Origin: Niabella ginsenosidivorans
Lineage (GTDB): Bacteria > Bacteroidota > Bacteroidia > Chitinophagales > Chitinophagaceae
Reading direction: 5' to 3'
NCBI RefSeq assembly: GCF_001654455.1
Contig: NZ_CP015772.1
Coordinates: 1,860,001 to 1,924,000 of the forward strand
Length of the DNA: 64,000 nt
Positions 12,886 through 30,781 of the stretch are shown here, one piece after another. The position numbers and the translations under genes are program-made. Numbering within the stretch: position 1 is the first letter of the stretch; each line of letters opens with the position of its first letter. The notes under the pieces were generated by a model that ran no database searches, was not told the origin of the DNA, and saw only the letters and a list, made by a program, of their open reading frames with translations.

Positions 12886-13013
12886 CAAGCTGTTAATGAC
12901 AAGTGTTGTAAGTTATTGGAAATGAATCTACATAAGGAACGTCATTCCGAATGGAGCAGAGCGGAATGAGCGGAGGAATCTCTCTGAGAATACAGAGATC
13001 CCTCGGCTGCGCT
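12886..13013 (-). repeat. Dispersed intergenic repeat, copy split by an IS110 element
   Basis: This is the main part of the second copy of the repeat at 1714-1876, in opposite orientation. Its remaining 28 bases continue at 14591-14618 on the other side of the IS110 element. Rejoining 13013 to 14592 restores the 'cgtcatcccg-ag-cgcagcc' block corresponding to 'cgtcatcccg-gg-cgtagcc' in the intact copy. A short motif shared with 1645-1667 (cttttaaatgg) lies just outside at 12860-12882. Confidence 0.75.
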
Positions 13014-13034
13014 GCCAATGACATATTATTTAAT

Positions 13035-14348
13035 TCATTGTATTTCAATGATCTTTAATCCGTGTTTTAAAGCCAGTTTTTGTAAATAGTTTTGTTCACG
13101 CTGTTTTAATTGCTGTTCATATTTTGCAATACCCTGTTCCACGTATTGCGTTCCCTTTGTTAGCAGGTTATAAAAGGCTTCCGCTATTTTTCTGGCACCT
13201 GCTTTGATCGCTATTCGTGCATTCTTTCTGCTCTTAAGTTTTCTGATAAAAGCTCCTATTGCCACATACTTACTATTGAGTAATGCCTGGGCTATTTCCC
13301 GGAAGGTCTGACCGGCATTAGAATGATTGTTCATTTTCGATTTTCTGCTTTTTAAACCACTTTGGTTATGGCCCGGACAAAGGCCACACCAACTTACAAA
13401 ATGTTTTGCCGTTGGGAATCGGCTCATGTCTGCTCCCACTTCTCCCAACAATTTCAGCAGTGTATAATCGGTGATACCAGGAATACAATTGGCATCTGCA
13501 CCATAAATATTTAGTAATTTCTGATGCAGGCCGGTTATCATGGGCTTGTGATGCCGTATTGGCTTGGCTTTGTGTTCACTTGTAATGAACTGTTTGCCAT
13601 GCTCAAGATTACACAACAAGCCTTCGATATGTTTATCAATAAGCAACAGTTGTTGCTGATGAACCTTCCAAAGATTTAAGCTTTGTTCTAATAGAAACAA
13701 CCAGCTTTCATTATAATGGCCTTCCAGCGCATTGATTACCTGCTGTGCTTTCTTTTCACGGATGCTTACGTGACACAGAGACAGCAGCTTTTCTTTATTG
13801 CGTTCTCCGTTTAAGATGGCTTCGATCATCCGGATCCCGCTTGTCCCATTTATCTGACAAATCACTTCTGTGAGTTTTATATTCATTAACTCCAATGCTT
13901 TTTGCATCTTATTTACATAGGTACTTCCCATACTAATAAGATCTTCCCGCTCCCGGATCATCATGCGCAACTCCTTTAACTTTCCTGAGGGTATATAGCT
14001 TTGCCGTACCAGGCCTGCACTAAACATTTTTTGCATCCAGCACGCATCTTTTACATCGGTTTTTCTACCCTTTACCTGTTTTACTTCTTTAGGATTTACA
14101 AGGCAGACTTCCATGCCTGCTTCCTCCAGCATCTGGTGTAAGGCTATCCAGTAAATACCCGTTGCTTCCATACAAACCCGTTTTATTTTCTGTTGCAGGA
14201 GCGCTTCAATGCATTGCCGATAGCCAGTCGTAAATGTATCATAGCTTTTTACCGTAACCCCGTCAGTGGAAACGAAAATCTTTTTGGAGCCGATATCTAT
14301 GGCTGCTGCATCTGGATTTTGTTGCTCAAACTCAATTACCTTTGACAT
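13035..14348 (-). CDS. IS110-family transposase/recombinase
   Basis: A 437-residue DEDD recombinase with the N-terminal RuvC-like domain (Asp18 in AAIDIG, Glu61 in CMEATGIYWIA, and Asp98 and Asp101 in GRKTDVKDA), a long coiled-coil middle, and the C-terminal Transposase_20/serine domain (IPGITDYTLLKLLGEVG ... FVSWCGLCPGH). Length and motifs are complete, so it is probably active. IS110 enzymes work with an element-encoded bridge RNA that pairs with donor and target DNA. The matching candidate RNA lies immediately upstream. It is only distantly similar to the second IS110 transposase in this window. Confidence 0.95.
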   Translation of the reverse strand: MSKVIEFEQQNPDAAAIDIGSKKIFVSTDGVTVKSYDTFTTGYRQCIEALLQQKIKRVCMEATGIYWIALHQMLEEAGMEVCLVNPKEVKQVKGRKTDVKDACWMQKMFSAGLVRQSYIPSGKLKELRMMIREREDLISMGSTYVNKMQKALELMNIKLTEVICQINGTSGIRMIEAILNGERNKEKLLSLCHVSIREKKAQQVINALEGHYNESWLFLLEQSLNLWKVHQQQLLLIDKHIEGLLCNLEHGKQFITSEHKAKPIRHHKPMITGLHQKLLNIYGADANCIPGITDYTLLKLLGEVGADMSRFPTAKHFVSWCGLCPGHNQSGLKSRKSKMNNHSNAGQTFREIAQALLNSKYVAIGAFIRKLKSRKNARIAIKAGARKIAEAFYNLLTKGTQYVEQGIAKYEQQLKQREQNYLQKLALKHGLKIIEIQ

Positions 14349-14372
14349 AACAACTTTTTAAGAGTTAATAAA

Positions 14373-14536
14373 AAGCAGGCTACAGCCCAAAGAGGTTCTT
14401 AAAAAGGCAAGCTGCCAAACGGGAATACTGCCTGATACAGTATCACCAAACATTGATGGACCATTCTTTGAAGCAATGCTCAGGGTCAGGTACTAAGACA
14501 CTAAGTTTATTACTGCTACACTGCTGTAGCCTGCTT
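14373..14536 (-). ncRNA. Candidate bridge RNA of the IS110 element
   Basis: This 164-nt segment in the left end is closed by a perfect 14-bp inverted repeat (14373-14386 and 14523-14536, AAGCAGGCTACAGC with its complement). Inside are smaller hairpins, for example ATACTG/CAGTAT. Read in transposase orientation, the 5' half has CCCTGAGC (plus 14478-14485), like the target CCCGAGC. The 3' half has GGCAGTA (14426-14432), identical to the right-end/core/left-end junction GGC-AG-TA. Known bridge RNAs place the target loop 5' and the donor loop 3'. The stem is observed; the function is inferred. Confidence 0.6.
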
Positions 14537-14738
14537 CTTCAAAGTTATTACATGTCATCGCCTCATTGATTTGGGCCACCAATAGTTTACTCGGGATGAC
14601 GATTAAAAAAAATTTGTCATCCGAATGAACTTAAATGCAATGTTTTTATGGTTGCCTCATCACGACATTGCTTATTGAACGGATTTTAATCTAAAGGTAT
14701 TAATTCCGGGCTGCCGGATCAACTATTGCATACAAGCC

Positions 14739-14799: not shown

Positions 14800-16731
14800 T
14801 TAATGTTTACTTTCCAAACTCCTGATAAAAGCAATAATCTCCTTTTTTTCTTTTTCAGTGAGCCGAAGCTTTTCATCAGGAAGTGTCTGGTTCGGAAGAT
14901 TGAGCCCCAGGCCCGCGCCTCCTCCATTATTATAGAATTCCATAACCTGATCCAGGGTCTGATATACGCCATTATGCATATAAGGGGCTGTTTTATCAAT
15001 ATTCCGGACAGTAGGGACCTTAAAGGCATATTTATAGGCATCAACACCAATAATATCATAATAGCCCCTATCCGGATCCGGCGTGGTGTCTGTCAGGGAC
15101 CTGGGAACACCTAATACTTCCGTTTCGCTTGCAACATACTTGGGTGGAGTGGCTCCGTTAAACAAAGGTATAAAATGGCAGGTGGCACATTTTGCTTTTC
15201 CCATAAACAGATTAAATCCTTTCAGTTCCTGTGTTGACAGGGCCTGCTCATTGCCCTGCATATATTCATCAAACCGGCTGTTGAGCCGGGTCAGGCTGCG
15301 GATATAGGCAGCAAGGGCATTTGTGACTTCATCTGCACGAATGCTATTTTCAGTCTTTTCAGGAAAAGACTTTGACGGATAAGTACTCGGAGAAAAACTA
15401 TCCGGTGAATAAGTATTTGCAGAAAAAGTATTTGCCGGAATACCTTCCGGAAACGCTTTGGCGAATAAGGACTGATACGTTTTATCTGCCGAAACATATT
15501 TTATGATTGCCTCCATCGAACCATCCATCTCGGCTTTGTTACTGATCACATCCCACACCTGCTCCTCCAGCGTTAACGCCCGCATATCGTAAAAATAATT
15601 AGACTGTAAAGCCGCATTGAGCAACGTGGGCACATTCCGCTTTAATAATTTTGCCGGATCATGGATCTCCGTAGGTTTAGCCAGCCCGTCCGTAAATGCT
15701 AACTCGGGGCGGTGGCAGGAGGCACAGCTTCTTGTACCGGTACCGGATAGCGCTGCATCATAAAAAAGTTTTTCCCCTAATGCCACTTTAGCGGCTGTAA
15801 TATGAAATTCAGGGCCTGGTGAAAATGCATCCACATTGAATGCATCCGGATCAAACAGGGTCTTTGCTTCCTGTTTCAGCATCCGGTTGTACCTGATTTT
15901 TGGGCCGGGTATATTTTGCTCCAATTGCGCTATACCCGTGCTGATCTTATTGGCAAAACGGGTAATAAATACCGCTCTGTCAAAGGTGGCAAAGTCCGGA
16001 TGTACATGCAGGTACCTGATGGCTGTATCCAGCTCCTGCAATAAGGGAGTTTGCCGGTTTTTACCGGTATAGTAACTGAGCACCTTCCGCAGGCTTTTTA
16101 AAGACGCAGCCGATTCCTCCATACTGTTCAGCGAAAGCGCATTGTCGAACCCGGTAATACCCAACGTAATGATCCTGAAAACCTCCAATTTGGCAGCGTC
16201 CAGGATCCGCCAGTCGGCAAGCTGATGATCAGCAAAATAAGCCATCAGGTACTCCGTATTTTTTATTAGGTGGGCCACTTCACGGATCAGTTCCTTTTTA
16301 CCGGCAGTATCATATTTTGGGTAGATCAGCGGCTCAATCACCTGCAGGCCCATTGGGTCAATGGCCCGGACCAGGGAGGAGTCCTGTAAGTCTGCATTCT
16401 CAACTTCCTGAACAGGAGGGCCATTTAACCGCTCCGTCAGCTCCGAATCAAAATATGCGGCAGCCCATTCAAATTCCTTAAACAGCAACCTGGATCTTAG
16501 AAAGGCCTGCCGGACCCTTTGTGTGTCTATATTTCCATTACGGATATCTGAAAAAAAGGAGTCCTTTACATAGTCATGAAAGGTTACGATCTGGCTGAAG
16601 ACCTTTTTCTGAATGCTTAGTTCCCGTTTACGGGATTTCGTTTGCGCTCCATGATCCGTATAAAAGGGAGTAAAGCTTGCAATAAATAGCCCCGTAAACA
16701 AAATGGCCACTATCCACATCTTCTTATGCAT
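14800..16731 (-). CDS. Di-heme cytochrome-c peroxidase family protein
   Basis: A 643-residue secreted or anchored protein with one N-terminal hydrophobic segment (5-22). The C-terminal half is a bacterial cytochrome-c peroxidase/MauG-type domain with two covalent heme motifs, CASCH (336-340) and CATCH (514-518). The N-terminal 300 residues are helical, heme-free and not recognised. Between the hemes lies a degenerate pentapeptide repeat (about 431-457, phenylalanine/tyrosine every fifth residue). Enzymes of this type reduce peroxide or oxidise a protein partner in the periplasm. It is co-transcribed with the upstream phosphoesterase (28-base gap). Confidence 0.88.
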   Translation of the reverse strand: MHKKMWIVAILFTGLFIASFTPFYTDHGAQTKSRKRELSIQKKVFSQIVTFHDYVKDSFFSDIRNGNIDTQRVRQAFLRSRLLFKEFEWAAAYFDSELTERLNGPPVQEVENADLQDSSLVRAIDPMGLQVIEPLIYPKYDTAGKKELIREVAHLIKNTEYLMAYFADHQLADWRILDAAKLEVFRIITLGITGFDNALSLNSMEESAASLKSLRKVLSYYTGKNRQTPLLQELDTAIRYLHVHPDFATFDRAVFITRFANKISTGIAQLEQNIPGPKIRYNRMLKQEAKTLFDPDAFNVDAFSPGPEFHITAAKVALGEKLFYDAALSGTGTRSCASCHRPELAFTDGLAKPTEIHDPAKLLKRNVPTLLNAALQSNYFYDMRALTLEEQVWDVISNKAEMDGSMEAIIKYVSADKTYQSLFAKAFPEGIPANTFSANTYSPDSFSPSTYPSKSFPEKTENSIRADEVTNALAAYIRSLTRLNSRFDEYMQGNEQALSTQELKGFNLFMGKAKCATCHFIPLFNGATPPKYVASETEVLGVPRSLTDTTPDPDRGYYDIIGVDAYKYAFKVPTVRNIDKTAPYMHNGVYQTLDQVMEFYNNGGGAGLGLNLPNQTLPDEKLRLTEKEKKEIIAFIRSLESKH

Positions 16732-28668: not shown

Positions 28669-28876
28669 GTATAAGCAATCTTTTGTTTCGTGTTATATAA
28701 CTTAGAGACCGCTTCTTGCAGCTAAGGCCTTCTTAGTTCATTGAACATTAGTTCATCACAAAGTCTGGTTCCGTAGCCAATTATGTTTCAAATTGGGACA
28801 ATTTATTGAGCCCGCATAGTAGAGTAAATATAGACAGGCGATCGGGCAAGGAGCTTTCATTAAATAAACAAAAATT
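28669..28876 (+). other. Non-coding left end of the second IS110 element, possible bridge RNA
   Basis: This 208-base segment between the IS256 end and the transposase start has no ORF. It contains several small inverted repeats: GTTCA/TGAAC near 28735-28750, AAATT/AATTT near 28790-28805 and GCCCG/CGGGC at about 28810-28846. IS110-group elements carry their bridge RNA in this position, so such an RNA is expected here, but no single enclosing stem like that of the first element was found. Confidence 0.3.
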
Positions 28877-30250
28877 ATGAACAAACAAGACAAAAAGAAA
28901 GCAAAGAAAAAATTAACCCCATCTGATATGGTCCGTATGCCAATAGTCAATAGCGATGCAGCAGGCATTGATATATCGGCAACCATTCATGCGGTAGCTG
29001 TTCCTATAGATCGGGATGAGGAGAGTGTAAGATTGTTTGGAGGATTTACGGAAGACTTGAAGGCTATTGCCGAGTGGTTAAGACAATGTAGTATCACAAG
29101 TGTTGCTATGGAAAGTACAGGCGTTTATTGGAAACCTTTGTATATGATTTTAATAGAGAATGGATTTGAGGTATTACTGGTAAATGCTAAACATGTAAAA
29201 AACGTAACGGGTCGCAAAACAGATGAAGAAGACGCTCGCTGGATACAAAAACTACATTCTTGTGGGTTGTTAAAAAGTAGCTTTATACCTGATAATGCTA
29301 CAGAGCAGCTACGTACGTTGGTTCGACATAGGAAGAGACTTTTAGAAGATAGCAGCAAATATGTGCAGAGAATGCAAAAGGCCCTAGAATTAATGAATAT
29401 TAAAATACACTGTGTCATTAGCGATTTGATGGGAAAGACCGGTACAGCGATTATAGAAGCCATACTTGCAGGGGAACGAATGCCTAAAAATTTTTTAATT
29501 CATGTTGACGGCAGAATAAAGGCTGACTCAGAAAAAATTACCCAATCCCTAACTGGTAACTGGCGAGAAGAACAATTGTTTTTACTGGAAGAAAATTATA
29601 GTCTTTATCAGTATATCCAACAACGAATAATATCATGCGAATCAAAAATAGAAAAATATTTTAAAAGCGTTATCACCAACAGTGAGGGCATACACCAGAA
29701 ACAAATTTCTACTGAACGACAGACTAGGAAAAGCAGACAAAAAAAGAAAAATGATCCCCTATTCGACGTTAGGGGGTATTTATATAGAATACATGGTGTG
29801 GATGTGACTGAGATATTTGGAATAAGCGAAACGTCCGCGTTAGAAATACTGGCAGAGACTGGGACCGATTTATCAAAATGGGAAGATGAGAAGAAGTTTG
29901 TCAGTTGGCTCAATCTTTGTCCAAATAATAAAATATCTGGGGGAAAATTGATTAGCAGCATGGTAATGAGTAAAAAATCAGGTTATGTAGCACAATCCTT
30001 TCGAGCTGCAGCCAATGGTTTACAAAGAAGCGACCATTGGTTAGGAGATTATTTTAGGCGTATGAAGACTAAAGGCGGCAACAAATATGCAATTATAGCA
30101 ACTGCCAGGAAATTGGCCATCATTTATTATAAAATGGTTCGTTACAAACAAGAGTTTAACCCCATTGATGCGGAAACATACCGTCAAAAATATAAGGCCG
30201 TCAAAATCGCTTGGCTAGAAAAGCAATTATCCAGATTAAAGGTAGCTTAA
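28877..30250 (+). CDS. IS110-family transposase/recombinase (second type)
   Basis: A 457-residue DEDD recombinase with VNSDAAGIDISATIHAVAVP (catalytic Asp), VAMESTGVYWKPLY (Glu), GRKTDEEDARWIQKL (two Asp) and a C-terminal Transposase_20 domain (IHGVDVTEIFGISETSALEILAETG ... FVSWLNLCPNN). A lysine/arginine-rich linker (TRKSRQKKKND) joins the halves. It differs widely from the 13-kb transposase, so it represents another IS110 lineage. All motifs are intact. It abuts the IS256 element, one IS having landed beside or within the end of the other. Its right boundary was not determined. Confidence 0.93.
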   Translation: MNKQDKKKAKKKLTPSDMVRMPIVNSDAAGIDISATIHAVAVPIDRDEESVRLFGGFTEDLKAIAEWLRQCSITSVAMESTGVYWKPLYMILIENGFEVLLVNAKHVKNVTGRKTDEEDARWIQKLHSCGLLKSSFIPDNATEQLRTLVRHRKRLLEDSSKYVQRMQKALELMNIKIHCVISDLMGKTGTAIIEAILAGERMPKNFLIHVDGRIKADSEKITQSLTGNWREEQLFLLEENYSLYQYIQQRIISCESKIEKYFKSVITNSEGIHQKQISTERQTRKSRQKKKNDPLFDVRGYLYRIHGVDVTEIFGISETSALEILAETGTDLSKWEDEKKFVSWLNLCPNNKISGGKLISSMVMSKKSGYVAQSFRAAANGLQRSDHWLGDYFRRMKTKGGNKYAIIATARKLAIIYYKMVRYKQEFNPIDAETYRQKYKAVKIAWLEKQLSRLKVA

Positions 30251-30781
30251 GTGAAAGTTATATAGTAGAACTAAACACTACCCGAAATTTCGAATAGCTT
30301 ATAAGCTTAATTTTCCCCAAGTTCCTGGTAACGGAATATACCTGAATTCACTGTTTATGAATGTAACACAAGTTTTAGCCTACTGGGGAGCTGGTTTATC
30401 AACGATAACTGCTATTATTAACGGATCATTATTTCGATACTGTAGATTCTAATGACGACATAATTGTTGTAACGGGTATTTCATTGGCTTCAATAAAGTA
30501 CCCTGGTTCAAGCTTACCTGTTTGATGAAGATTTAGTGCTTTTCCTGTTTACCGCATCTCCCTTTTAGTGCTACTTCTGCAATCTTACTTTGCAAGATAT
30601 ACTGGCGGCTGGGTGCGTCTGAACCAATACTGTTTTTACAGAGCAGTAAAAATAAGCATAACCTATTGTCTAAGATTTTTAGGGATTTTATAACACCTGT
30701 TTCGTATCAGATTTGACTATTATGGGGAATTTAGAATAGTAAAACTAATATACAATGAATTCACTATTAATTAAGAACACT
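30251..30781. other. Gene-free stretch after the IS110 element
   Basis: The first part is presumably the right end of the IS. On the minus strand two short frames (around 30420-30620: SDAPSRQYILQSKIAEVAL, then TGKALNLHQTGKLEPGYFI) look faintly protein-like and may be a decayed gene, but no family was recognised. An 11-bp inverted match (attcgaaattt) links 27248-27258 with 30285-30295, the two sides of the IS cluster. Confidence 0.3.

Follow-up and report, generated by a model that had tools for sequence, protein, structure and literature searches.

A probable bridge RNA upstream of an IS110-family transposase in Niabella ginsenosidivorans, with one guide detected on the 3' side of each loop

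A 64,000-nucleotide stretch of the Niabella ginsenosidivorans genome (contig NZ_CP015772.1, positions 1,860,001 to 1,924,000; hereafter the window) carries an IS110-family insertion element on its minus strand, and the sequence comparisons described below make it very probable that the non-coding segment upstream of the transposase gene is the bridge RNA of this element. The segment has a fold supported by covariation, and two of its loop segments follow the target DNA and the right end of the element, respectively, across 18 element groups. An initial annotation, made from the letters of the window alone, had proposed a bridge RNA in which the target guide precedes the donor guide, and both the structural covariation and the tracking of guides by DNA uphold this proposal. 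Bridge RNAs are important since their target and donor are reprogrammable. We consider it an even bet that this lineage reads only half of each site, by one guide of about seven nucleotides per loop, located on the 3' side and covering the left half and the core, the right halves being unread.

The element was placed at 13012-14589 with a core AG because its copies in the same genome could be compared and an empty site was found in locus L009. The comparison of copies gives the flank CGTCATCCCGAG and then TAAACTATTGG at the left boundary, and GTCATTGGCAG and then CGCAGCC at the right one. When the flanks of the element are joined, they align to the empty site at 96.8% over 154 bases, gapless and with a single AG. 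Judged by this one empty site, the window element was inserted precisely at the shared core AG, with no larger target duplication. The features of the element are as follows.

13012-14589, minus strand: IS110-family element of 1578 bp, AG core counted once; ends from same-genome copies and the empty site
13035-14348, minus strand: open reading frame (ORF) of the IS110 transposase, 437 amino acids (aa), with Pfam PF01548 and PF02371, and NCBIfam NF033542 above cut-off
14590-14600, minus strand: left target in the flank including the core AG, GTCATCCCGAG
13018-13024, minus strand: subterminal inverted repeat of the right end, ATGTCAT
14552-14558, minus strand: subterminal inverted repeat of the left end, ATGACAT

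The transposase has both the DEDD (RuvC) N-terminal domain and the Transposase_20 C-terminal domain; its only matches among solved structures in phmmer, at E up to 0.1, are IS621 and ISCro4 chains. It has 15 matches in the host genome, which comprise group A, group B, and distant or partial copies. Group A, to which the window element belongs, includes three copies with identical protein and three broken or partial ones, and the protein of group B is 73-74% identical to the window transposase. The left end is long and non-coding, with 241 nt up to the start codon, and the right end is short, reaching 23 nt past the ORF. As the initial annotation held, the segment in question is non-coding and lies upstream of the transposase: no ORF of at least 80 aa was found over it. 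The target of the window element, CGTCATCCCGAGCGCAG, is one end of a repetitive extragenic palindromic (REP)-like palindrome, and GTCAYYYYGAGCG is present 11 times in the genome versus 0 for the reversed control. Insertion sequences aiming at REP are already known (PMC1525189).

The RNA and its parts were located as follows.

14370-14539, minus strand: putative bridge RNA gene, from covariance, with a match to covariance model R1 at 14372-14537 (a training row of that model); start and end predicted
14523-14539, minus strand: outer stem P1, 5' strand, pairing with 14370-14386
14370-14386, minus strand: outer stem P1, 3' strand, with five U at its end
14513-14517, minus strand: stem closing the target loop, 5' strand AGCAG, pairing with UUGCU at 14472-14476
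14472-14476, minus strand: stem closing the target loop, 3' strand UUGCU
14488-14503, minus strand: cap hairpin of the target loop, UAGUGU..GUACCU
14479-14486, minus strand: target guide ACCCUGAG, on the best target diagonal, pairing with left target and core
14465-14471, minus strand: P2, 5' strand of the donor arm, pairing with 14387-14393
14387-14393, minus strand: P2, 3' strand
14422-14447, minus strand: P5 hairpin of the donor arm, holding GGCAGTA (14426-14432)
14412-14419, minus strand: donor guide UUUGGCAG, on the best same-sense donor diagonal, pairing with right end and core

The outer stem consists of 17 pairs with one G-T, and the perfect 14-bp stem described in the initial annotation is indeed present at 14523-14536 with 14373-14386. 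The segment folds better than its dinucleotide shuffles (z -3.74, with 1 of 200 shuffles equally good). Covariation was assessed in an alignment of 14 of the 18 group RNAs; the RNAs of K, M, N, and P were excluded because a simple stem scan gave their outer stem as short, offset, or misplaced, and row I, one column out of register in P1, was retained. RNAalifold assigns 39 pairs, 29 of which are altered on both sides in at least one row. Standard pairs occupy 94.8% of 534 cells vs. 74.2% after shuffling, and 38.2-48.2% when the structure is slid by one to three columns, a control that leans toward the structure because the latter was derived from the same rows. None of 500 shuffles reached any of five pairing measures. 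Changes on both sides were seen somewhere in 9 of the 11 counted pairs of P1 (where 91.7% of the cells pair), 3 of 5 in the closing stem of the target loop (helix 2; 95.7%), 3 of 4 of the cap hairpin (helix 3; 98.2%), 7 of 7 of P2 (helix 4; 92.9%), and 6 of 8 of P5 (helix 5; 97.3%). In P6, a small hairpin at the donor guide, one pair of four alters on both sides. Rfam gives no match at the gathering threshold over the whole window and none at E up to 1 for 14340-14600.

The data set in which the guides were sought comprises 18 element groups with their two ends, 47 left target flanks, and 46 right ones. Each RNA position was set against the positions of target and donor, both senses being scanned (7424 diagonals apiece) and the labels permuted 2000 times. 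The top target diagonal sets the guide part CCUGAG against target positions -6 to -1, with 5.48 of 6 positions paired and z 6.7; this and the other z values are upper bounds, since the 18 groups are relatives, many of them with a repeat type in common. Copy by copy over the 47 left flanks, 292 of 329 positions of the target guide are paired (280 Watson-Crick and 12 G-U). A region test allowing gaps gives z 6.4 for the target guide and 5.7 for the donor guide, the next best of 64 combinations reaching 2.6. Natural switches of guide and target occur in group M (UUGCGAG with TTGCGAG), group S (AUGGUAG with ATGGTAG), and group C (UUUCGAG with TTTCGAG). Group B, the sister element in the same genome, has the core AC rather than AG in the target, the right end, and both guides. 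The homologous elements were thus examined for flanks that vary while the guide stays constant, and the outcome favours the target guide. The target match CCCTGAGC proposed earlier at 14478-14485 proved to be in the right place; the gap it contained was dropped, as the alignment is gapless.

On the donor side, the top same-sense diagonal aligns UGGCAG with the six terminal bases of the right end (5.92 of 6 paired, z 6.6). Over the 18 groups, 121 of 126 donor-guide positions are paired, 120 by Watson-Crick pairs and one by G-U. This guide lies 14 bases further along the RNA than GGCAGTA, which the initial annotation had taken for the donor guide. GGCAGTA does equal right end GGC, core AG, and left end TA, and it is an exact 7-nt match in the window copy. 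It turned out to be one strand of the covarying P5, and P5 does not track the right end across the 18 groups (z 1.5, p 0.08). In group B, AGCAGCA stands at the same position, vs. the donor GGCACTT. A guide at 14426-14432 is hardly credible on these grounds. The same all-position scan recovers the inverted repeats, the diagonal of left-end TGACAT against right-end ATGTCA scoring 5.78 of 6 (z 5.2). In the window element these repeats measure 7 bp; 14 of the 18 groups have 7-9 bp, and D, H, T, and U have 5 bp. The groups' own pairs of left and right repeats are longer than permuted pairs (p 0.0002).

The guides were also tried on 13 loci absent from the building of R1 and aligned to it; L032, L034, and L049, which had been inspected beforehand, re-entered in this test only, under other locus numbers. 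The eight-base target guide scores 6.81 of 8 against its own 150-base upstream flank vs. 6.24 against the flanks of the others (p 0.0008; p 0.0016 without L139, which scores above the mean of others yet lacks a transposase). For the donor guide, the figures are 6.44 and 6.06 (p 0.028) in the eight loci where the gene end is present; the best donor match is unconvincing in L130, L135, and L140. L134 and L136 belong to two genomes of the same genus and have similar starts after the junction. At -6 their guides have U and C and their targets T and C, respectively, and the L134 target is mismatched at -7. It may be asked if the structure is merely a 5' leader that regulates translation or transcription of the transposase, the guide matches being due to chance. 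The segment does lie directly upstream of the gene, and such regulation is reported for ISPpu9 (PMC8450116). Taken alone, this explanation is very unlikely, since it fails to explain two loop segments that follow target and donor in the 18 groups and in the outside loci. A leader role may exist alongside the guide role.

Apart from the relatedness that makes the z values upper bounds, a number of observations weigh against guide reading as outlined. In the window copy itself, the gapless pairing of CCCUGAG with TCCCGAG comprises five Watson-Crick pairs, one G-U, and one mismatch. Two of seven target-guide positions are not Watson-Crick in groups D, E, and N, and some single copies of A, Q, and R have two mismatches. 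Group C has AA at the right end and AG in the left flank, and group H has TG at the right end opposite the guide's AG. Diagonals that belong neither to guides nor to inverted repeats attain z values up to 4.6, but no more than 2.83 of 6 positions pair in them. Among the outside loci, L131, L132, and L138 score below the mean of others with their own flank, and the best target match of L140 is away from the presumed junction.

Group S (L055, L061, L066) presents a side observation. Its target, GTCAATGGTAG, has the letters found at the right ends of K, M, N, and P; in addition, the donor guide of these four groups is identical to the target guide of group S. Insertion of group S beside other IS110 copies was considered and rejected: for none of the three copies did the 1267 upstream bases reveal an IS110 gene.

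A candidate promoter element is found next to the RNA.

14540-14547, minus strand: TAACTTTG, matching the -7 box TAnnTTTG (consensus from PMC9723704)

According to passages of PMC9723704, TAnnTTTG is the -7 box of flavobacterial sigma-A promoters, covering -12 to -5. An exact box within 32 nt upstream of P1 was found in 7 of the 18 groups (mean of shuffles for the exact box 0.31, maximum 4); the remaining 11 are one mismatch away. A scan of 12900-14700 for sigma-70 promoters and terminators gave three and two sites vs. 4.2 and 1.7 in shuffles, respectively. From the sequence, the transcript is predicted to start at about 14535, inside the first bases of P1, and to end at the U run 14370-14374.

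The following route appears probable. The -7 box just upstream would start a transcript of about 165 nt, which would fold into the outer stem P1 with a target arm and a donor arm branching from it. The donor arm would act through the 3' side of its loop (UUUGGCAG), which would pair with the circular element's right end. The transposase would then join target and donor and recombine them at the shared AG core, the outcome being an element placed precisely in REP-like repeats with no duplication beyond AG. The ends, the core, the empty site, the fold, and the agreement of both guides with target and donor can be read from the sequence itself; from these we infer transcription, the circle, protein binding, strand exchange, and transposition.

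A second guide on the right side was sought as well. In gapped tests, the right target gives z -0.3, 1.2, and -0.3 against the 5' side, the cap loop, and the following bases of the target loop, and the left end gives 1.0, -0.6, and 0.0 against three donor regions. Ungapped tests of right target and left end against the same regions reveal nothing prominent with high pairing. No column inspected by eye has the core complement in the AG groups and shifts with the AC core of group B. A single RNA of group R stands beside four right flanks, GAAC, CTCG, TGCA, and CCTG. In most of the eight groups with at least three right flanks, conservation is lower on the right than on the left (in Q about equal), a comparison confounded by the repeats. 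Two candidates were rejected: UUGCU after the target guide, which would pair with AGCGA with one G-U, is the stem closing the loop, and CUUCGUGC of group Q, the reverse complement of one of four right flanks, is a cap hairpin with a UUCG loop, other groups having no match.

These results have to be set against an ordinary four-guide bridge RNA as in IS621, whose right guides would escape detection through bulges or through their shortness (core plus about two bases). In IS621 itself, the right-target guide is four nucleotides long and the right-donor guide is discontiguous, as passages of PMC11208160 and PMC11208158 describe. The right target is CG in most groups, which limits the power of the tests, and some left-end comparisons in the donor hairpin region beat permutations (z 4.2, 2.03 of 4 paired). 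The flat region tests, the lack of a column following the core of group B, and the four right flanks of group R argue against it, and we regard such a layout as possible, at a probability of about one in three. Half-site reading, if true, means that seven nucleotides per loop set target and donor. Matches to both target strands are described in passages of PMC11208160 and PMC11187229 for IS621, ISEc21, and tested IS1111 elements, and a natural family with one detectable guide per loop would reveal the minimum needed. Sister elements with switched guide and target offer ready test pairs: A and B in one genome, and M vs. H, K, and N. Beyond the guide, 43 of the 47 left flanks have GTCA at -11 to -8; it may be read by the protein or may just belong to the repeat.

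Further observations concern the insertion sites. Groups A and B, with their differing cores, use opposite ends of copies of one palindrome (L009 1319-1472 and 3056-3117). Compared with the repeat copy of the window, TCGG stands on either side of the B insertion in L009, which may be a duplication or a repeat variant; this site has four extra bases relative to another copy of the repeat. In the right flank of L001, an A copy, 40 extra bases lie between the right end and the expected CGAATGCC flank, and they finish with a second copy of the target half GTCACCTTGAG. L039 and L041 (G716) are two group G copies in tandem, the flank between them being common to both.

Within the genus, 7 of 17 genomes have relatives of the transposase at E up to 0.001; at 1e-100 or below, relatives were found in 8 of 394 genomes of the family, 3 of 396 of the order, and 4 of 395 of the class. 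Three further sets gave 5 of 201, 2 of 64, and 8 of 330 (cut-offs 1e-90, 1e-90, and 1e-100), the query for the last being the transposase of L048; the genome sets overlap. The 18 groups leave aside loci whose ends could not be fixed (L013, L014, L018-L021, L023, L026, L029, L031-L034, L040, L049), L074 (left end missing), L015 (part of L010), and repeats of one place (L027, L028, L052, L053, L057, L058, L063, L068, L072, L077). The 159 plasmid records of relatives, all below 60% identity, were not used. A protein scan of genome contigs returned three loci: L027 (same contig as L017), L028 (a match to L035), and the distant L029. Model R1 finds 11 places in the host genome and has matches in 12 of 17 genomes, chosen mostly for having the transposase. 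In a phylum sample, 11 of 168 genomes, among them the host's and G716, have R1 matches at E up to 0.001; the match in G861 (E 6.7e-4), with no transposase match beside it, is probably false.

Elsewhere in the window, a second, distant IS110 transposase, 38% identical, is located at 28937-30226 on the plus strand (the genome place of L014), and a weak R1 match (28705-28860, E 0.026) lies just upstream of it. Its GCATAGTAG stretch matches TATAGTAG past the gene (30257-30268), where the right end might lie. The neighbour of the element under study, the ORF 14800-16731 on the minus strand, has two CxxCH motifs; we take it to resemble a di-haem cytochrome c peroxidase.

The element shares features with several known systems as portrayed in passages of the respective papers. 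As in IS621 (PMC11208160, PMC11208158), the RNA occupies the left end and lies upstream of the DEDD recombinase, the target loop preceding the donor loop; each loop comprises a stem, a strand, a cap stem-loop, and a strand, with a guide that contains the core dinucleotide, and the targets are of REP type. Unlike in IS621, the bottom-strand guides are found here on the 3' side of both loops, between the cap hairpin and the closing stem, the outer stem encloses both arms, and a top-strand guide was not found in the scans described. The IS110-group layout given in the initial annotation therefore stands as to the order of the loops and differs in that the guides are on the 3' side with no second guide per loop detected. 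As for ISEc21, whose seekRNA is of the IS110 type (PMC11187229), the upstream non-coding region sets the target; ISEc21 matches both strands, the top-strand match lying 3' of the bottom-strand one, whereas the single match here is to the bottom strand and lies on the 3' side. The reversed order of guides relative to the IS110 type resembles the seekRNA or bridge RNA of IS1111-type elements (PMC11187229). So do the long subterminal inverted repeats, 7-17 bp in PMC11187229 and PMC11208160 and 7-9 bp in 14 of the 18 groups here; in the IS110 group, they are 2-3 bp (PMC11208160) vs. 7 bp in the window element. The RNA of IS1111 elements is usually in the right end downstream of the gene (PMC11208160), unlike the upstream position here. 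Since an order reversal between the IS1111 and IS110 types is reported in PMC11187229, the RNA appears to combine the place of the IS110 type with an IS1111-like guide side. In general, the text descriptions in PMC11208160, PMC11208158, and PMC11187229 suggest a variant layout set apart from IS621, ISEc21, and IS1111, in which IS110 and IS1111 traits are joined: an upstream RNA, long subterminal repeats, and an IS1111-like guide side.
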